Assembly: GCF_900112345.1 (NCBI RefSeq)
Contig: NZ_FOLB01000003.1
Coordinates: 124,001 to 188,000 of the forward strand
DNA length: 64,000 bases
Direction: 5' to 3'
Origin: Nocardioides terrae
GTDB lineage: Bacteria > Actinomycetota > Actinomycetes > Propionibacteriales > Nocardioidaceae
Under the pieces are notes generated by a model. That model searched no databases. It worked only from the letters and a program-made list of their open reading frames with translations, and was not told the origin of the DNA. This document shows positions 20,730 to 29,693 of the stretch, piece by piece. Position numbers and translations under genes: made by a program. Each line of letters starts with the position of its first letter. The first letter of the stretch is position 1.

Positions 20730-21449
20730 TCAGACGTCGCCGCCGAGGTAGGCGGCCTTGACCGACGCGTCGCCGGCCAGGTCACGACCGGGGCCGGAGC
20801 GGATGATCCGGCCCGTCTCCAGGATGTGGGCGGAGTCCGAGCGCTTCAGCGCCTGGGCGGCGTTCTGCTCGACCAGGAGCACCGTGGTGCCCTGGGCCCG
20901 GATCTCGTCGATGATGGCGAAGATCTGGGCGATGAGCTTGGGCGCCAGACCCATCGACGGCTCGTCGAGCAGGACGACCTTCGGCCGCGCCATCAGCGCG
21001 CGACCCATGGCGAGCATCTGCTGCTCGCCGCCCGACATGGTCCCTGCCATCTGGTTGACCCGCTCGGACAGACGGGGGAACAGGTCGAACACCCGGTCGA
21101 GGTCCTGCTGGTAGGCGGGCGTGCGCGTGTCCTTCCGGACGAACGCACCCATGTCGAGGTTCTCCCGCACCGTCATCCCGGGGAAGCAGCCACGCCCCTC
21201 GGGCGACTGGCTCAGCCCCATCTTCACCCGCTCGTACGGCGGCAGGTGGGTGATGTCCGTGCCGTCGAACACGATCCGGCCGGCCCGGACCGGTCGCAGT
21301 CCCGAGATCGTCTTCAAGGTGGTGGTCTTGCCGGCACCGTTCGCCCCGATCAGGGTCGTGATGGTGCCCTCCTCCACCCCGAAGGAGATGTCGCGGATCG
21401 CTTCGATGTGGCCGTAGTTCACACACAGGCCTTCGACCTCAAGAAGCAT
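20730..21449 (-). CDS. livF: Branched-chain amino-acid ABC transporter ATP-binding protein
   Basis: 239 residues: Walker A GANGAGKTTTLKTISG, the LivF-type LSQSPEGRGCFPGMTVRENL, signature MSGGEQQMLAMGRALM, Walker B VVLLDEPSMGLAPK and H-loop VLLVEQNAAQALK. The EGRG-x-FPxMTVxENL stretch separates LivF from LivG. ATG at 21449 has GAGGAGG seven bases upstream and overlaps the livG stop by eleven bases; a TTG start further up is less likely. Last gene of the livKHMGF operon. Confidence 0.95.
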   Translation of the reverse strand: MLLEVEGLCVNYGHIEAIRDISFGVEEGTITTLIGANGAGKTTTLKTISGLRPVRAGRIVFDGTDITHLPPYERVKMGLSQSPEGRGCFPGMTVRENLDMGAFVRKDTRTPAYQQDLDRVFDLFPRLSERVNQMAGTMSGGEQQMLAMGRALMARPKVVLLDEPSMGLAPKLIAQIFAIIDEIRAQGTTVLLVEQNAAQALKRSDSAHILETGRIIRSGPGRDLAGDASVKAAYLGGDV

Positions 21450-22251
21450 CTTCGTCCTCCTCAACGCCGAGGTAGGCCGCGATCACGGCCGGGTTGTTCT
21501 GGATCTCCTCGGGCGTGCCCTCGGCGATCTTGCGGCCGAACTCGAGCACCACGATCCGGTCGGTGACGCCCATGACCAGTCGCATGTCGTGCTCGATGAG
21601 CAGGACGGTGTAGCCCTCGTCGCGCACCCGTCGGATGAGCTCCATGAGCCGCCGCTTCTCGGCCGGGTTGAAGCCGGCCGCGGGCTCGTCGAGGCAGAGC
21701 AGCTTGGGGCCGGTCGCCATGGCGCGCGCGATCTCCAGGCGGCGCTGGTCGCCGTAGGACAGGTTCGCGGCGAGCTCGTCGTACCCCGCCGTGACACCGA
21801 CGATCCTCAGCAGCTCCTTGGCCCGGACCAGCGACGCCCCTTCGGTGCGCCGGTGGCGGGGCGTGCGGAACAGCGCGTCGAAGAAGCCGACCTTGCTGTG
21901 CACGTCCGCCCCGACCATCACGTTCTCGAGCACCGTCATCGTCTTGAAGAGTCGGATGTTCTGGAACGTGCGGGCCATGCCGAGCTTGGTGATCTGGTGT
22001 CGCTTCATCTTGGCGATCGGCTCACCGTCGAGCCGGACCTGCCCCGAGGTCGCCTGGTAGACGCCGGTCATGACGTTGAAGCACGTCGTCTTGCCGGCGC
22101 CGTTGGGACCGATCAGGCCGAGGATCTCGCCCTCGCGGATGTCGAACGACACCGAGTCGAGCGCGGTGAGGCCACCGAACCTGATGGTGACGTCGTCGAC
22201 CTCCAGCAGCGACTTGCGGGTCGCCGGCTGGGTCTGCTGGACCTCAGACAT
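21439..22251 (-). CDS. livG: Branched-chain amino-acid ABC transporter ATP-binding protein
   Basis: 270 residues: Walker [17 protein letters not shown], the LivG-type [21 protein letters not shown], signature [16 protein letters not shown], Walker [16 protein letters not shown] and the H-loop region [13 protein letters not shown], all typical of LivG. The C terminus ends in [11 protein letters not shown], the usual close of this family. It overlaps livM by eight bases and livF by eleven. It pairs with LivF as the ATPase heterodimer of the importer. Confidence 0.96.
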
Positions 22252-23443
22252 GAGTGCCCTCCTCTTCCACGTCGCCTTCCTCCAGGGCGTCGATCTCGGC
22301 CAGCACGGCCTTGGCGCGCCTGGTCCGTCTCGGCGGTAGCAGCCCCTCGGGCCGGAAGACGGCCAGGGTCGTCAACGCGAGACCGAAGACGAGCAGCCGG
22401 TAGTCGGCGAACTCGCGGAACCGCTCCGGCAGGTAGGCGACGAGCGCGCCACCCGCCATCGCGCCCCAGCGGTTGCCCGAGCCACCGACGATGACCGCCG
22501 CCACGAACAGCATCGAGAGCAGCAGGGGGAAGCTGTCCGGGCTGATGTAGCCGCCCTGGCCGCTCGCGTAGAACGAGCCGGACAGACCGCCGATGCCGGC
22601 GCCGAGGGCGAACGCCATCAGCTTGTACTTGAAGGTGTGGACGCCCATCAGCTCGGCGGCATCCTCGTCCTCCCGGGTCGCCTCCCAGGCCCGGCCGACC
22701 TTGCTGGCCTTCACCAGCCGGTCGCCGATCACCACGAGGATCAGAGCCGTCAGCAGGAGCCAGTAGTACGGCGTCGCGTCGGTCGCCCCGAAGATCAGGA
22801 AGTGGGTGGGGTGCTCCCGGTCGAGCGACGGGACCACGCCGTTCCAGACGACGCGGGGGATCTCGAACAGGCCGCCCGGGTCGAACGGCGGCTTGGGGGC
22901 CGGCCCGATCGAGTTGGGGTGCGGGATGTCCTTGATGCCCGCCGAGGCGCCGAGCCACTCGATGTTCTTGACGCAGATCCGGATGATCTCACCGAATCCG
23001 AGCGTCACGATGGCCAGGTAGTCGCCGCGGACGCGCAGCGTCGGCGCACCCAGGATGACGCCGGTGATCATCGTGACGACGATCGCCACCGGGAGGGCCA
23101 GGAAGAACGGCCAGCTCCCGTGGTGCGACGTCAGCACACCGGTGGTGTAGGCGCCGGTGGCGTAGAAGCCGACGTAGCCGAGGTCGAGCAGGCCGGCGTA
23201 GCCGATGACGATGTTGAGACCCAGGGCGACCAGCGCGAACGCGGCGACCTGGAACATGACACCACCGAAGTCGATCTGGTTGGTGGTGAGCAGCGGCGGA
23301 CGGAGCAGCGGCAGCGAGTAGAAGAACAGGACCACCACGGCACCGGCCAGGATGCGCACGGCGCGCGGCTGCCGGCCGAACCAGTCGGTGATCTCGTTCC
23401 AGCCGTTGCCGATGGGAGCCAGGGCACTACGGAAAGAGGTCAT
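22244..23443 (-). CDS. livM: Branched-chain amino-acid ABC transporter permease
   Basis: 399 residues with about ten helices. LivM signatures are visible: [41 protein letters not shown] with the following long loop, and the C-terminal [15 protein letters not shown] and RPEGLLPPR segments. The ATG at 23443 forms an ATGA overlap with the livH stop; the longer open frame upstream lies inside livH. A soluble loop of about 60 residues after the GFGEI helix contains the PFDPGG stretch. It forms the translocation path with LivH. Confidence 0.95.
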
Positions 23444-24459
23444 CAGGCACGCGCCTTTCCGAGGGCCTCGCCGAGCAGACCCGACGGGCGCACGAGCAGG
23501 ATCAGGACCAGCAGCACGAAGGCGACGACGTCCCTCCACTCGCTGCCGAAGACGGCCGCTCCCCAGTTCTCCATGATGCCGAGCAGCAGGCCGCCGAGCA
23601 GGGCGCCCCGCAGGTTGCCGATGCCGCCCATGACGGCGGCGGTGAAGGCCTTGACGCCGAGGATGAACCCGGCGTTCTGACGGGTCGAGCCGATCTTCAT
23701 CATGTAGAGGGTCGCCGCGGCCCCGGCCATCAGGCCGCCGATGAGGAACGTCACCTGCACCACGCGGGTGGAGTTGACGCCCATGAGGGACGCCGACTCC
23801 GGGTCCTGGGCGACGGCACGGATGCCGCGGCCGAAGCGGGTGCGGCGGACGAACTGGTCCAGCGCGAACATCATCAGCAGCGCCGCGACGATGATGACGA
23901 TGTCGACGTCGCTGACCGCGTATCCGCCGATCTCGAAGAGCTTGTGCGGCTGGATGGAGACGGGGTTGGAGTAGACGTCACGCGCGGCACCCGGCGAGAC
24001 GTAGTTGCTCAGCTTGTGGTCAAGCCCGAACCAGCCCGCGAAGCGGTCACGCAGGCCCATGGCCTCGCTCAGCGCGAACGAGGCGCCGATCGCCGAGATG
24101 AGTGCGATCAGCTTCGGGGCGTTCTTCTGGATCAGTGGTCGGTAGGCGACCCGCTCGAGCAGGAGCGCGACCAGCGCCGACACGATCATCGCCGCGACGA
24201 ACGCGACGAGGAGGATGGGCAGCGCCTTGCCGAGGCTCCAGCTCACGTCGCTGGTGCCGTGCAGCAGCACGAAGATCCAGGCCACAGCGAAGGTCCCGAA
24301 CATGAAGACCTCGGAGTGGGCGAAGTTGATGAGTTGCAGGACGCCGTACACCATCGTGTAGCCGAGCGCGATCAGCGCGTAGATGGCGCCGAACACGAGG
24401 CCGCCGACGGTGAAGCTGGCGAAGTTGTCGAAGCTGCCGAAAAGGGCTCCGAGGTCCAA
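23443..24459 (-). CDS. livH: Branched-chain amino-acid ABC transporter permease
   Basis: 338 residues with about eight helices and LivH signatures GLVFGAIYALIALGYTMVYG, LINFAHSEVFMFGTF, RRTRFGRGIRAVAQDPESA and GIGNLRGALLGG. The start is chosen as TTG at 24459 because GGGGAGG lies seven bases upstream; the extra codons of the open frame upstream run through the stem-loop at 24482-24514 and have no coding character. ATGA overlap with livM. Forms the membrane channel with LivM. Confidence 0.93.
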   Translation of the reverse strand: MDLGALFGSFDNFASFTVGGLVFGAIYALIALGYTMVYGVLQLINFAHSEVFMFGTFAVAWIFVLLHGTSDVSWSLGKALPILLVAFVAAMIVSALVALLLERVAYRPLIQKNAPKLIALISAIGASFALSEAMGLRDRFAGWFGLDHKLSNYVSPGAARDVYSNPVSIQPHKLFEIGGYAVSDVDIVIIVAALLMMFALDQFVRRTRFGRGIRAVAQDPESASLMGVNSTRVVQVTFLIGGLMAGAAATLYMMKIGSTRQNAGFILGVKAFTAAVMGGIGNLRGALLGGLLLGIMENWGAAVFGSEWRDVVAFVLLVLILLVRPSGLLGEALGKARA

Positions 24460-24481
24460 GAGGGTTCCTCCCCTTCTGATC

Positions 24482-24514
24482 GGCTGCGGCCGGAGCGTCG
24501 CTCCGGCCGCAGCC
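24482..24514 (-). promoter_or_regulatory. Strong stem-loop between livK and livH
   Basis: A 15-base perfect inverted repeat (24482-24496 with 24500-24514) around a GTC loop, between the livK stop and the livH ribosome-binding site. It has no U tract. Hairpins here in other importer operons act as partial terminators or mRNA stabilisers that keep the binding protein in excess over the membrane parts; that role is inferred. Confidence 0.7.
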
Positions 24515-24539
24515 TGTGTCACTCAGATGTTGCAGCTCG

Positions 24540-25682
24540 TCACTGGATCGCCTGGGGGTTCTCCACGTCCAGCGCGCCGTCCTTGACGAAGTAGGCGTAG
24601 ATCTTCGACTCCTTGATGTCGCCCTTGTCGTCGAAGGCGATCGGACCGCTCACGCCGTCGGCGTTGTAGTCGTTGATGAACTTGTTGATGTCCTCCGGCT
24701 TCGACTTCCCGGCGTCCACCGCGGCGAGGAAGATGTTCGCGGAGTCGTACGCCTGCGTGGCGTAGAGGCCGGTCGCGCCGAAGTCGGCCGGAGCCGGACC
24801 CGCGGGAGCGGAGAGCACGGCGCCGTTGGCGCCCTTGGCACCGGCGACCTTCACGAAGTTCGGGTCCTCCGAGCCGTCGCCGGACATGAACGTCCCGGCG
24901 AAGCCGCCCTGGCGCAGCGCCTTGGCGAGCAGGCCGGCCTCGGTGTAGTAGCCACCGTAGAAGACGGCGTCCGCGCCGGACGCCTTGACCTTGGTGACGA
25001 CGGCCGACATGTCGGTCTGGCCGACGGAGATCTGGTCGGAGTCGGCGAGCGCCGGGCCGAGGGCCTTCTTGACCGTGCCGGCGAGACCCTTGCTGTAGTC
25101 CTGGCCGTCGTCGACGACGAAGACCTTCTTGGCACCGCCGGTGCCGGTCAGGTAGGAGGCGTCCGCCTGGCCCTGGGCGTCGTCGTTGCCGATGACGCGG
25201 TGCCAGGTGGTCCAGCCCTGCTGCGTGATGGTGACGTTGGTGGCCGACGGGGAGATCGACGGGAGGCCGGCCTCGAAGAACGTCTTGCCGGTCGCCAGCG
25301 ACTCGCCGGAGAACCCGGGGCCGACCAGGCCGAAGATCGAGTCGTCGTTGATGATCTGGGTCGCGAGGGCCGGCGCCTTGTCGGGGCTGCCCTGGGAGTC
25401 GAAGGTCTTGAGGTTGACCTTGCAGTCGGCGTTCTTCTCGTTGTGCTCCTTGATGGCCAGGTTGATGCCGTTGACCATGTTCTGGCCGAGCGCACCGGCG
25501 TCACCGGTCAGGGCGCCCAGGAACGCGATGTTCTTGCCGCACAGCGCGCTCGTGCCGGAGCTGCTGCCCTTGCTGCTCGAGTCGCTGCCGCCGTCGTCCG
25601 ACGAGCCGCAAGCGGCGGTCAGGGCCAGCGCGGCGACGCCGGCCACAGAGGCGAAGCGCGCCTTCTTGGTGAATCCAGTCAT
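24540..25682 (-). CDS. livK: Branched-chain amino-acid ABC transporter substrate-binding lipoprotein
   Basis: 380 residues. The signal peptide ends LTAAC (Cys25), followed by a Ser/Gly-rich linker and a type-I periplasmic binding domain of the Peripla_BP_6 family: IAFLGALTGDAGALGQNMVNG, LVGPGFSGESLA, SISPSATN, and YTEAGLLAKALRQGG. ATG at 25682 has AAGGA seven bases upstream. It is first in the livKHMGF operon; the 153-base region upstream (25683-25835) must hold the promoter but I see no convincing boxes. Ligand is probably Leu/Ile/Val, although homologues bind amides and other amino acids. Confidence 0.94.
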   Translation of the reverse strand: MTGFTKKARFASVAGVAALALTAACGSSDDGGSDSSSKGSSSGTSALCGKNIAFLGALTGDAGALGQNMVNGINLAIKEHNEKNADCKVNLKTFDSQGSPDKAPALATQIINDDSIFGLVGPGFSGESLATGKTFFEAGLPSISPSATNVTITQQGWTTWHRVIGNDDAQGQADASYLTGTGGAKKVFVVDDGQDYSKGLAGTVKKALGPALADSDQISVGQTDMSAVVTKVKASGADAVFYGGYYTEAGLLAKALRQGGFAGTFMSGDGSEDPNFVKVAGAKGANGAVLSAPAGPAPADFGATGLYATQAYDSANIFLAAVDAGKSKPEDINKFINDYNADGVSGPIAFDDKGDIKESKIYAYFVKDGALDVENPQAIQ

Positions 25683-25835: not shown

Positions 25836-26447
25836 TCAAACCTCCGGGGTGTCGCCGGCGAGGCCCGGACCGTGCTCGATGACCCCGTCGGCCACCTGGC
25901 GCATGGAGAGCCGGAGGTCCATCGCCGTCTTCTGGATCCACCGGAACGCCTCCGGCTCCGAGAGGCTCAGCTGCTCCTGCAGCACCCCCTTGGCGCGCTC
26001 CACCGCCTTGCGGGTGTCGAGCCGCTCGGTCAGCCCGGCGACCTCGGCCTCGAGGTGGGAGAGCTCAGCGAACCGGCTCACCGCCAGCTCGATGGCGGGC
26101 ACCAGGTCGCTGGCCGTGAACGGCTTGACCAGGTAGGCCATCGCGCCCGCGTCGCGGGCCCGCTCGACGAGCTCACGCTGCGAGAAGGCGGTCAGCATGA
26201 CGACCGGCGCGATGCGCTCGCGGGCGATGCGCTCGGCGGCCGCGATGCCGTCCAGGACCGGCATCTTGACGTCCAGGATGACCAGGTCCGGCTTGTGCTG
26301 CGTCGCCAGGTCGATCGCCGTCTGGCCGTCGCCGGCCTGGCCCACGACCTCGTACCCCTCCTCGGCGAGCATCTCGGCGAGGTCCATCCTGATCAGCACC
26401 TCGTCCTCGGCGATGACGACGGTGCGGTGCGCGGGCTGGTCGGTCAC
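25836..26447 (-). CDS. pdtaR: ANTAR-domain response regulator
   Basis: 203 residues. Residues 1-125 are a receiver domain with the acidic pair AEDE, phosphoacceptor Asp in DLVILDVKMP, Thr in MLTAFSQ and Lys in YLVKPFTASD. Residues 135-190 are an ANTAR domain (LDTRKAVERAKGVLQEQLSLSEPEAFRWIQKTAMD) that binds paired RNA hairpins and acts by antitermination. It matches PdtaR (Rv1626), the partner of the sensor kinase PdtaS, though no kinase gene is in the window. GTG at 26447 follows a TAACCT box by seven bases. It lies close to pyk and polA, as Rv1626 lies near pykA and polA. Confidence 0.93.
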   Translation of the reverse strand: MTDQPAHRTVVIAEDEVLIRMDLAEMLAEEGYEVVGQAGDGQTAIDLATQHKPDLVILDVKMPVLDGIAAAERIARERIAPVVMLTAFSQRELVERARDAGAMAYLVKPFTASDLVPAIELAVSRFAELSHLEAEVAGLTERLDTRKAVERAKGVLQEQLSLSEPEAFRWIQKTAMDLRLSMRQVADGVIEHGPGLAGDTPEV

Positions 26448-26460: not shown

Positions 26461-26529
26461 GGGCATCCGCAGTACGCCGCCCCGGACTGCGCCGAGGCGC
26501 GACCGGTCCGGTACGGTTCCGTGGCTGAG

Positions 26530-26605
26530 GCCCCGATATCCCAACGGCAGAGGAAGTCGGCTCAAACCCGATCCAGTGTGGGTTCGAATCCCACTCGGGG
26601 CACCA
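26530..26605 (+). tRNA. tRNA with CAA (Leu) anticodon and short variable arm
   Basis: A full cloverleaf with encoded CCA. The acceptor stem GCCCCGA/TCGGGGC is perfect, the D stem is three pairs (TCC/GGA) with GG in its loop, the anticodon stem is GTCGG/CCGAT, loop CTCAAAC puts CAA at 26563-26565, the variable region is only five bases (CCAGT), and the T arm is GTGGG-TTCGAAT-CCCAC. The discriminator is A73, as in leucine tRNAs. Bacterial tRNA-Leu normally has a long variable arm, so the class I shape is odd. A TACGGT hexamer at 26512-26517 may be its -10. It converges on pyk with one base between. Confidence 0.88.
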
Positions 26606-26606
26606 C

Positions 26607-28073
26607 TCAGACGCGGCGATAGGCGGGCGCGACCTCGTTGATCGCGTCGCCCATGCGGTGGATCCGCAGCGCGTTGGTCGAGCCGGGGATCCCCGGCGGG
26701 CTGCCGGCGATGATCACGACGAGCTCGCCCTCCTCGGCGCGGCCGAGCTGCAGCAGGGCCTCGTCGACCTGGCGGACCATCTGGTCGGTGTGCTCGACCT
26801 CGTCGACCTTGAAGGTCTCCAGGCCCCAGCTCATCGACAGCTGCGAGCGGACGGTCGAGTGCGGCGTGAAGGCCAGCAGCGGGATGGAGCCGCGCAGACG
26901 GGACAGGCGTCGGGCGGAGTCGCCGGAGGTGGTGAACGCGACGAGGTACTTCGCCCCGACCCGGTCGGCGACCTCCTGCGCAGCCTTGGCGATGACGCCG
27001 GCGCGCGTGTGCGGGTCCCACGGAAGCGGCGCGAGGCTGCCCTGCTGGAACGCGTGGGTCTCGGTGGCGTCCACGATGCGCGCCATCGTCTCGACGGTGT
27101 GGATCGGGAACTCCCCCACGCTCGTCTCGGCGGAGAGCATGACGGCGTCGGCGCCGTCGAGGACGGCGTTGGCGACGTCAGACGCCTCGGCGCGGGTCGG
27201 CTGCGGGTTGGTGATCATCGACTCGAGCATCTGCGTCGCGACGATCACCGGCTTGGCGTTGAGCCGCGCCTTCTCGATGATCAGCTTCTGGAGGAACGGC
27301 ACCTCCTCCAGCGGACACTCCACACCCAGGTCGCCGCGAGCGACCATGAAGGCGTCGAAGGAGTCGATGATCTCGTCGAGGTTGTCGATGGCCTGCGGCT
27401 TCTCGAGCTTCGCGACGATCGGCACGCTGATGCCGACCTCGCGCATGATCTTGCGGACGTCCTCCGCGTCGGCGGCGTCGCGCACGAACGAGAGGGCGAT
27501 GAAGTCGACGCCGAGCTGCAGCGCGAAGCGGAGGTCGTCGATGTCCTTCTCGGACAGGGCCGGGACCGAGACGGCGACGCCGGGCAGGTTGATGCCCTTG
27601 TGGTTGCTGACCGGACCGCCGACCAGGACCTCGGTCTGCACATCGGTGCCGTCCGCGATCCCGGTGACGCGCAGCCGGATCTTGCCGTCGTCGATCAGCA
27701 GGATGTCGCCCGGGTTGGTGTCGCCCGGGAGGCCCTTGTAGGTCGTTCCGCAGACCATGTCGTCACCCTCGACGTCGCGGACGGTGATCGTCCACGCCTG
27801 ACCTCGGCGCAGCACCCACTTCGAGCCGTCCTCCCGCGGGCGGAAGGTCTCGAGGCGGATCTTCGGGCCCTGCAGGTCAGCCAGGATGCCGACGCTCTTG
27901 CCGCTGGCGTCGGACGCGTCGCGCACCAGGCCGTAGTTACGAGCGTGGTCCTCGTGGCTGCCGTGGCTGAAGTTCAGCCGCGCGATGTCCATCCCCGCGT
28001 AGACGAGCTCCTTGATGCGGCGCTCCGTCCCGACAGCAGGGCCCAGGGTGCATACGATCTTGGCTCGTCTCAC
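26607..28073 (-). CDS. pyk: Pyruvate kinase
   Basis: 488 residues. The N-terminal KIVCTLGPA, substrate-binding RLNFSHGSHEDH, the Mg/K-binding MVARGDLGVECPLEEVP, and the MLESMI-PTRAEASDVANAVLDG signature of the barrel domain are all present, with a C-terminal allosteric domain containing FTTSGDSARRLSRLR. It converts phosphoenolpyruvate and ADP to pyruvate and ATP. The start is GTG at 28073 with TAGGGT eight bases upstream. It is followed on the same strand by no gene; the tRNA runs against it. Confidence 0.97.
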   Translation of the reverse strand: MRRAKIVCTLGPAVGTERRIKELVYAGMDIARLNFSHGSHEDHARNYGLVRDASDASGKSVGILADLQGPKIRLETFRPREDGSKWVLRRGQAWTITVRDVEGDDMVCGTTYKGLPGDTNPGDILLIDDGKIRLRVTGIADGTDVQTEVLVGGPVSNHKGINLPGVAVSVPALSEKDIDDLRFALQLGVDFIALSFVRDAADAEDVRKIMREVGISVPIVAKLEKPQAIDNLDEIIDSFDAFMVARGDLGVECPLEEVPFLQKLIIEKARLNAKPVIVATQMLESMITNPQPTRAEASDVANAVLDGADAVMLSAETSVGEFPIHTVETMARIVDATETHAFQQGSLAPLPWDPHTRAGVIAKAAQEVADRVGAKYLVAFTTSGDSARRLSRLRGSIPLLAFTPHSTVRSQLSMSWGLETFKVDEVEHTDQMVRQVDEALLQLGRAEEGELVVIIAGSPPGIPGSTNALRIHRMGDAINEVAPAYRRV

Positions 28074-28161: not shown

Positions 28162-29628
28162 TCAGACCGCCAGCGGACGGTCCGTCGGCCGGATCGGCGA
28201 AGGCAGCGTCGTCGAACCGGTCAGGTACTCGTCGACCGCCGCGGCGGCGGCGCGACCCTCGGCGATCGCCCAGACGATGAGCGACTGGCCGCGGCCGGCG
28301 TCGCCGGCGACGAAGACACCGGGGACCGAGCTGGCCCAGCCGCCGTCGCGGGCGACGTTGCCGCGGGGGTCGAGCTCGACGCCGAGCTGCTCGACCAGGC
28401 CCGGCTTCTCCGGCCCGAGGAAGCCCATCGCGAAGAGGACCAGGTCGGCCATGATCTCGCGCTCGGTCCCCTCCTTCTCGACCAGCCTGCCCTCGACGAA
28501 CTCGACGTCGACGAGCCTGAGCGCCCGCACGTTGCCGTCGGCGTCGCCGAGGAACTCCTTGGTCGAGACGGCGTACATGCGGTCGCCGCCCTCCTCGTGG
28601 GCCGAGGAGACGCGGAAGATCATCGGGTACGTCGGCCACGGCTGTCCGGCCGGACGCTCGAGCGAGGGCTCGGGCAGGATCTCGAGCTGCGTGATCGAGG
28701 CCGCACCCTGGCGGATGGACGTGCCGAGGCAGTCGGCGCCGGTGTCGCCGCCGCCGATGATGACGACGTGCTTGCCGGCGGCGGTGATCTGGCCGTCCAC
28801 CTCCTCGCCCAGCGACACCCGGTTGGCCTGGGGCAGGAACTCCATGGCCTGGTGGACGCCGTTGAGCTCACGCCCGGGCACTGCCAGGTCGCGCGGTGCG
28901 GTGGAGCCCATGGCGAGCACGATGGCGTCGTACCGGCCCTGGAGCGCCTCACCGGTGATGTCGACGCCGACGTTGACGCCGGTCCGGAAGACGGTGCCCT
29001 CGCGGCGCATCTGCTCGAGACGCCGGTCGACGTGCTGCTTCTCCATCTTGAACTCGGGGATGCCGTAGCGCAGCAGTCCGCCGATCTTGTCGGCGCGCTC
29101 GTAGACCGCGACCGTGTGGCCGGAGCGGGTCAGCTGCTGGGCGGCGGCCAGTCCGGCCGGGCCCGAGCCGATCACGGCGACGGTGCGGCCCGAGAGCCAC
29201 TCCGGCGGCTGGGGCCGCACGAAGCCGGACTCCCACGCCTTGTCGATGATCGAGACCTCGACGTTCTTGATCGTCACCGGGTCCTGGTTGATGCCGAGCA
29301 CGCAGGCCGTCTCGCACGGCGCCGGGCAGAGCCGGCCGGTGAACTCCGGGAAGTTGTTGGTCGCGTGGAGGCGCTCGATCGCGCCCTCCCAGTCGTTGCG
29401 CCAGACCAGGTCGTTCCACTCCGGGATGATGTTGCCCAGCGGGCAGCCCTGGTGGCAGAACGGGATGCCGCAGTCCATGCAGCGGCCGGCCTGGGTGTTG
29501 ATGATCGGGAGCAGCGCCCGCCCGACGCCGCCCGGGTAGACCTCGTTCCAGTCCCCCACCCGCTCCTCGACCGGGCGTCGGGTCGCGACCTCGCGACCCG
29601 CCTTGAGAAAGCCCTTCGGGTCAGCCAT
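28162..29628 (-). CDS. gltD: Glutamate synthase (NADPH) small subunit
   Basis: 488 residues. Cysteine clusters CMDCGIPFCHQGCP and CPAPCETACV near residues 50-110 hold the two [4Fe-4S] centres at the subunit interface; FAD binding is by AVIGSGPAGLAAAQQL and NADPH binding by VVIIGGGDTGADCLG. It passes electrons from NADPH to GltB. ATG at 29628 has GAGGT eight bases upstream and was preferred to a codon four residues earlier. It follows gltB by 65 bases on the same strand. Confidence 0.97.
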   Translation of the reverse strand: MADPKGFLKAGREVATRRPVEERVGDWNEVYPGGVGRALLPIINTQAGRCMDCGIPFCHQGCPLGNIIPEWNDLVWRNDWEGAIERLHATNNFPEFTGRLCPAPCETACVLGINQDPVTIKNVEVSIIDKAWESGFVRPQPPEWLSGRTVAVIGSGPAGLAAAQQLTRSGHTVAVYERADKIGGLLRYGIPEFKMEKQHVDRRLEQMRREGTVFRTGVNVGVDITGEALQGRYDAIVLAMGSTAPRDLAVPGRELNGVHQAMEFLPQANRVSLGEEVDGQITAAGKHVVIIGGGDTGADCLGTSIRQGAASITQLEILPEPSLERPAGQPWPTYPMIFRVSSAHEEGGDRMYAVSTKEFLGDADGNVRALRLVDVEFVEGRLVEKEGTEREIMADLVLFAMGFLGPEKPGLVEQLGVELDPRGNVARDGGWASSVPGVFVAGDAGRGQSLIVWAIAEGRAAAAAVDEYLTGSTTLPSPIRPTDRPLAV

Positions 29629-29693
29629 CGTTAACCTCACCTTCCGCGATCACGTCGCGTTCCTCATGACGCGCCAGTCCCACGAACAACTGC

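Follow-up and report, generated by a model that had tools for sequence, protein, structure and literature searches.

Excerpts from a 2023 review on tRNA identity (PMC9976931) describe the long variable arm as a feature of tRNA-Leu everywhere except in animal mitochondria, where leucine identity is achieved without it and where A73 and A14 matter. According to the same excerpts, charging of the E. coli tRNA-Leu needs A73, A15-U48, G18G19 and A20a and shows no correlation with either the sequence or the folding of the variable arm; variants deprived of both the anticodon arm and the long variable arm stay active. Another short-armed (class I) leucine tRNA, this time actinobacterial, appears in the excerpted text of PMC6582537: a short-loop tRNA-Leu(TAG) from a horizontally acquired mycobacterial tRNA cluster, which is an extra gene beside the normal long-loop isoacceptor. 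Allo-tRNAs, defined by an 8/4 or 9/3 acceptor/T-stem composition, are treated in a paper on non-canonical tRNAs (PMC7609411), whose excerpts hold no class I tRNA-Leu case of the present kind. For Mycobacterium tuberculosis, an excerpt of PMC11541572 names tRNA-Leu-2, -3 and -5 as long-looped, which suggests that the class I form is probably known implicitly; in the excerpted text of open-licence PubMed Central articles we found no outright report of a class I tRNA-Leu as a regular actinobacterial gene.

The gene described here lies in a stretch of 64,000 nucleotides from Nocardioides terrae (the window, by which we mean this whole stretch), and it is a genuine tRNA whose form is widespread yet seldom discussed (Table 1). 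ARAGORN calls a tRNA-Leu(caa) at 26530-26605 (+), the Rfam family RF00005 matches 26530-26602 with 52.7 bits (gathering score 29), and the sequence itself reads as an acceptor stem GCCCCGA/TCGGGGC with 7/7 pairs, followed by U8 A9 and later by a T stem GTGGG/CCCAC with 5/5 pairs. These sources confirm the original prediction in its description of the anticodon CAA at 26563-26565, the five-base variable region, A73 and the encoded CCA. A fold with a long variable arm or with another anticodon, which that prediction had set as its own refutation, is given by neither ARAGORN nor Rfam.

Table 1. Coordinates of the tRNA gene, its parts and its conserved neighbours in the window.
Feature	Positions	Strand	Evidence
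tRNA-Leu(CAA), class I, CCA encoded	26530..26605	+	ARAGORN, Rfam, sequence, covariation
Leucine-type D arm: 3-bp stem UCC/GGA, C13-A22 mismatch, A14 A15, G18 G19, C20 A20a	26539..26554	+	sequence; pair and feature counts
Anticodon CAA	26563..26565	+	ARAGORN, sequence
Variable loop CCAGT, 5 nt; U48 pairs with A15	26573..26577	+	sequence; 15-48 covariation
Discriminator A73	26602	+	sequence; 110/110 class I sequences
Candidate -10-like hexamer TACGGT, 12 nt 5' of the tRNA	26512..26517	+	by eye, inferred
Response regulator with ANTAR domain, conserved neighbour	25836..26447	-	Pfam Response_reg and ANTAR; synteny
Pyruvate kinase, conserved neighbour	26607..28073	-	NCBIfam TIGR01064, 521 bits; synteny

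The reality of this tRNA rests mainly on comparative pairing in its homologues, the single-sequence fold being weak. Over 27 distinct homologues, 99.8% of the cloverleaf cells are paired and 14 of the 20 cloverleaf pairs show changes on both sides, and none of 500 shuffles reaches either value. The fold of the single sequence is unremarkable (z -1.73; 11 of 200 shuffles are equally good), and fold energy, weak evidence by itself, was left out of the argument. Structurally, the variable loop of 5 nt falls short of the class II arm of about 10 nt or more, and the 7/5 acceptor/T-stem composition differs from the 8/4 or 9/3 of allo-tRNAs. Moreover, whereas the animal mitochondrial tRNA-Leu is organellar and structurally loose, the window tRNA is a full cloverleaf encoded beside pyk on a bacterial chromosome contig of 347,877 bases. 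TANNNT stretches resembling the candidate hexamer of Table 1 precede, as judged by eye, many copies of both classes in the genus.

The source genome (3.92 Mb in 35 contigs, completeness 100%) holds 45 tRNA genes by RF00005, and 45 distinct ones by ARAGORN on the stretches fetched for them. Five are leucine tRNAs: three of class I, with anticodons CAA (76 nt), TAA (77 nt) and TAG (74 nt), and two of class II, GAG (86 nt) and CAG (85 nt). The original prediction had proposed looking for a normal class II tRNA-Leu(CAA) elsewhere in the genome; none was found with RF00005, ARAGORN, the class II pattern or a relaxed pattern, which leaves the window gene, unlike the mycobacterial tRNA-Leu(TAG), as the sole copy found for its anticodon. 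In five genes of the window, leucine is written as CTC 142 times, CTG 130, TTG 2, CTT 2, TTA 1 and CTA 0, one of the two TTG codons being the start codon of its ORF, and these counts indicate that the class I tRNAs, by their anticodons, serve rare codons. The nearest tRNA of the source genome to the window tRNA is the tRNA-Leu(TAA), at 77%. Gene conversion from this gene, flanks included, was considered and rejected: by eye, no relationship is visible among the flanking sequences of the three class I genes of this genome.

Leucine is the likely amino acid of the window tRNA, since the identity elements described for E. coli are present and since in class I genomes UUG codons align with leucine columns; transferring the E. 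coli rules in this way, we regard it as very probably an ordinary leucine acceptor. A73 is found in all 110 distinct class I sequences, as is the GG of G18 G19. The window tRNA has the Levitt pair A15-U48, which reads A-U in 97 and G-C in 13 of the 110, and A20a, whose counterpart, scored simply as an A two bases after GG, occurs in 105/110 class I and 74/85 class II sequences, most of the exceptions carrying an extra D-loop base. The D stem of three pairs, taken at the outset as an added oddity, proved to be the regular D arm of the leucine type: of 85 distinct class II tRNA-Leu, 84 have it as well, and the single outlier (L124) is a gene call starting one base early. As a side observation, both members of the Levitt pair change together, from A15-U48 to G15-C48, in the 13 class I sequences mentioned (L263, L266, L280 and other Streptomyces), and no mixed pair was seen.

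The second option of the original prediction, namely an identity other than that of the CAA anticodon and hence an amino acid other than leucine, would account for an architecture unusual in leucine tRNAs, and an isotype conflict of this kind has been described (excerpt of PMC8450103). The codons speak against it. We collected 99 TTG codons of class I loci, in neighbour genes, over 63 aligned columns with at least five class II sequences each; in columns where the class II sequences agree to at least 80%, 64 of these codons stand on leucine and 2 on valine (n=66). The mean leucine share over all 63 columns is 0.745, with 0.674 for the CTG control, and the reverse comparison gives a similar picture, with 44 Leu and 1 Val. 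This result concerns class I loci generally, the window's own two TTG codons being without an aligned partner. Together with the published leucine identity set and with a tRNA-Leu as nearest own relative, it makes a non-leucine identity highly improbable. The covariance model R1 points the same way, with 58 bits for the best non-leucine tRNA against 87-99 for the three own class I leucine tRNAs, although the model was built with these three genes and their high scores arise partly by construction. An origin from a Lys, Met or other isotype was rejected on these scores, with the same proviso.

One LeuRS of the source genome exceeds the family cut-off, with 933 bits. This ordinary enzyme would charge the window tRNA by reading A73, the 15-48 Levitt pair, G18G19 and A20a, and not the long arm; the arm would be dispensable because bacterial LeuRS, to judge by the published E. 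coli identity rules, reads other elements. A LeuRS type as the cause of the tRNA class was discarded: across 12 genomes, LeuRS occurs both with a break near model position 142 and lacking one, and neither form follows one tRNA class. The form with this break in the family match occurs in G122, G223, G320 and G336, with frames of 936-1039 aa, and the other eight genomes have the compact form. Separately, a genome of the same order carries two tandem LeuRS genes (G052:C59:35793-40806), with frames of 882 and 768 aa that each exceed the family cut-off.

The position of the gene is conserved. Each of the 38 loci read in the genus, 23 of them class I and 15 class II, adjoins pyk and/or the response regulator, which we take to be pdtaR-like; two of these loci show one neighbour only, in flanks of 1.5 kb. 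In 14 further genomes of the family and order the CAA gene also adjoins the regulator (pyk was unseen in some), as a class II copy in G223, five genomes of f2, one of f3 and three of f4, and as a class I copy in two of f3 and two of f4. In GTDB, the best 80 of 591 relatives of the regulator, which include Nocardioides, Streptomyces, Mycobacterium asiaticum and Actinomadura, carry a single tRNA-Leu(CAA) each beside the regulator in the stretches of up to 10 kb fetched, 51 of class I and 29 of class II. A class I CAA gene stands here in the Mycobacterium loci that were read and in many Nocardioides and Streptomyces genomes. The TAG loci behave alike: seven were compared (four class I, three class II) and all have the same upstream protein gene, about 1.4 kb off in two, and a common downstream gene is found in 5 of 6 loci compared with the reference and is absent at the TAG locus of the source genome.

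How far the class I form extends was followed at several depths. The window tRNA has a match in 52 of 58 relatives, and every one of the 29 loci read carries a class I tRNA-Leu (20 CAA and 9 TAA). Across the phylum, R1 at E <= 1e-11 matches 120 of 298 genomes, the weaker matches near 62-68 bits possibly including other tRNAs; the 30 loci of its best matches, one of which is the window itself, are all class I tRNA-Leu with CAA or TAA. The class I CAA pattern matches 38 of the 298 genomes, or 33 once five matches judged by eye from their sequence to be chance (G073, G130, G153, G261, G311) are dropped, and the class II CAA pattern matches 212, chance matches still included; the CAA patterns overlook variants, among them class II genes with GGNATACGC, as well as many Streptomyces. 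With a combined TAA pattern, 196 of the 298 genomes are matched, and both classes are present among the matches listed. Among these, class I TAA occurs in the genera of the source's own taxonomic class except for f10, and class II TAA turns up in several families, f32 among them, whose CAA gene is of class I. The class of one isoacceptor thus varies independently of that of the other.

Within the genus, a tRNA-Leu(CAA) is present in 40 of 40 genomes, as class I in 25 and as class II in 15. The underlying tally listed 39 genomes, with 24 class I, 9 class II and 6 unmatched; the six proved to be class II, and G014 is class I. The TAG isoacceptor is likewise divided (17 class I and 21 class II among 38 seen), the TAA isoacceptor is class I in 34/34 seen, and CAG is class II in 38/38 seen. 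The first option of the original prediction, an atypical leucine tRNA as in actinophages and some actinobacteria, is thus supported by a sole CAA gene, by its spread in the genus and by the phage copies described below. Its qualification, that the form would be ordinary if it were the regular one of the group, applies in part, the group being divided between the two classes. As an aside, G032, G034 and G359 have, beside the usual one, a second diverged match to the class II pattern, with anticodon CAG.

We consider it likely that the window gene is a functional and sole tRNA-Leu(CAA) charged by an ordinary LeuRS, and that two allele types at its locus are exchanged by replacement of a short cassette. 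The spot between the ANTAR response regulator gene and pyk holds either a class I allele, with A9, C12:G23, C13 and a variable loop of 5, or a class II allele, with G9, G12:C23, G13 and a variable arm of 13-16. Compared with class II tRNA-Leu, as found in E. coli and among the class II alleles of this very locus, the window tRNA shares A73, A15-U48, G18G19, A20a, the 3-bp D stem, the anticodon and the locus; it differs in lacking the long arm, in having A9, C12:G23 and C13 in place of G9, G12:C23 and G13, and in its acceptor stem. The two types are discrete. All 110 class I sequences have U8A9, C12, C13, A14, A22, G23, three D pairs, C2:G71 and A73, with a variable loop of 5 nt in 109 and of 6 nt in one; among the class II sequences (n=85), U8G9 and G12 are found in 84, G13 in 82 and C23 in all, and the variable arms of the class II alleles measure 13-16.

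The distribution of both types was followed on a tree of the regulator and pyruvate kinase from 114 actinobacterial loci (60 class I and 54 class II; 113 different, none dropped), sampled from the closest relatives of the regulator plus loci already fetched. No fewer than 31 class changes are required, and well-supported branches force 19 of these. As this is a quick tree, in which 44 of the 110 inner branches are open, 20 rows have fewer than half of their columns filled and some long branches meet, the figure of 31 is approximate; that of 19 stands on supported forks. Shuffled labels average 37.9 changes for class I and 38.1 for class II, with 2 and 6 of 500 shuffles as low as the observed count, so the class label is only slightly clustered on the tree. 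Related soil bacteria have one form or the other, short-armed or long-armed, at this one chromosomal spot, and they have apparently switched many times. The wide occurrence of both types in the taxonomic class could also be explained by ancient paralogues that coexisted and were lost, one or the other, in each lineage. For this, the forced changes would require long-lived double carriers; both types sit at the same spot, and among 57 class I CAA genomes a relaxed class II pattern gave four matches, none of them a tRNA by ARAGORN. We give this possibility very little credence.

The flanks suggest how the exchange may take place. Upstream, on the regulator side, the 25 closest pairs listed of opposite class are 89-95% identical up to a point 13-68 nt short of the tRNA; for the 15 closest pairs of the same class, identity runs on to 0-8 nt from it. 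Downstream, identity resumes at a terminator-like hairpin in 3 of 5 aligned opposite-class pairs (L319/L324, L302/L304, L308/L315), about 10 to 30 nt 3' of the tRNA in the two clearer ones, and the remaining two (L213/L214, L266/L283) show no clean resumption. Moreover, two alleles, defined by motif, recur over the tree: I_b (11 rows, at least 95% alike) requires 11 changes on it, 7 of them forced, and II_b (7 rows, at least 85% alike) requires 7, of which 5 are forced. The locus thus carries one copy in conserved synteny, of one of two discrete types, with many class changes and with recurrence of near-identical alleles. Divergence of the flanks tens of bases outside the tRNA, together with near-identical alleles in unrelated species, argues for recurrent short-tract replacement. 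A species would switch by swapping a cassette of leader, tRNA and trailer of roughly 100-200 bp, probably by recombination over short tracts, the partner being another actinobacterium or a phage-borne copy; both the recombination route and any phage donor are what we infer.

A different history would be repeated rebuilding in place, with the arm deleted or regained and the acceptor stem and D arm following by compensatory change. It would account for the common locus and for the anticodon and T arms, which are alike between class I and class II copies in places, a likeness that a one-step replacement does not predict; the acceptor stem and the leader can also evolve in place, and the copy of Streptomyces phage Wakanda joins G9 to a class I core. 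No intermediates were seen, however, between the U8A9, C12, C13 and G23 of every class I sequence and the U8G9 and G12 of all class II sequences save one; the leader changes together with the class, and near-identical alleles recur far apart. Rebuilding in place is therefore an unlikely explanation, and replacement of short cassettes remains the one that we favour.

Phages would be one conceivable reservoir for such cassettes. The window tRNA matches 80 phage records (E <= 1e-3), of which seven stretches were read. Class I tRNA-Leu genes are found in Erwinia phage phiEa21-4 (CAA), Pseudomonas phage ZC08 (TAA) and Prochlorococcus phage P-SSM7 (TAA), and these share the core of the window tRNA: U8 A9, C12 C13 A14 A15, A22 G23 and a loop ending in AGT. 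The Bixzunavirus Bonray has a class I tRNA-Leu(GAG) with the core and a CAA copy without it, the Wakanda copy (CAA) departs from the core by its G9, and in the Enterococcus and Lactobacillus phage cases the core is present and the ARAGORN frame is one base off. In IMG/VR, the class I CAA/TAA pattern matches at least 120 stretches; 118 of the 120 listed are called tRNA-Leu (99 TAA and 19 CAA), which, with the phage reads, indicates that the class I leucine form is a common phage tRNA. These copies differ from the window tRNA in their varied acceptor stems (70 different ones among the 118 viral copies listed, some trimmed a base off) and in being extras within viral tRNA sets. Given how common the form is in phages, one might take the window gene for an extra derived from a phage or another element, or for a pseudogene. 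As the only CAA tRNA found in its genome, at a conserved chromosomal locus and with covarying stems, it is extremely improbable that it is either.

A speculative reading of why two forms are kept would see the CAA and TAG loci as arms-race loci of translation, where architecture-specific toxins, anticodon nucleases or phage factors select whichever form escapes them. Phages with a class I tRNA-Leu would supply escape copies, leucine tRNAs for rare codons would be the targets, and CAG would stay class II. This reading, which we hold to be possible but doubtful, was inspired by the tRNA choice of a toxin, decided according to an excerpt of PMC11541572 by the length and orientation of the variable loop; that work is no evidence for it.

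The point that deserves attention is the alternation of two architectures from species to species at one conserved locus. Such variation offers natural experiments on the need of LeuRS, EF-Tu, modification enzymes and tRNA-targeting toxins for the arm, and class I tRNA-Leu genes may be mislabelled by rules under which a leucine tRNA must have a long arm.

Some further observations concern the surroundings of these genes. A palindrome like CCTTCGATTCGAAGG lies 3' of most Streptomyces class I copies, often with a similar one 5' (L302, L304, L266, L280 and others), and it is rare elsewhere, with 13 matches in 18 genomes. The 13 genome matches of the palindrome CCTTNGWTTCNAAGG comprise 7 beside a class I tRNA-Leu(CAA), 5 with no tRNA near and 1 unread; beside the Streptomyces class I genes it resembled the end of a mobile element, and no conclusion was drawn from this. 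Plasmids were considered as carriers and rejected, the single match lying in an 11.85-Mb record, a chromosome by its size. In the window, ARAGORN also calls a tRNA-Glu(ttc) of 87 nt at 28259-28345 (-), inside the reading frame 28162-29640 (-), which is probably spurious, as there is no Rfam match at that position. On the other side, a branched-chain amino acid ABC transporter set (20730-25682, -), comprising by Pfam a binding protein, two permeases and two ATPases, adjoins the regulator and the leucine tRNA, and livJ-like matches recur at many, though not all, of the syntenic loci.
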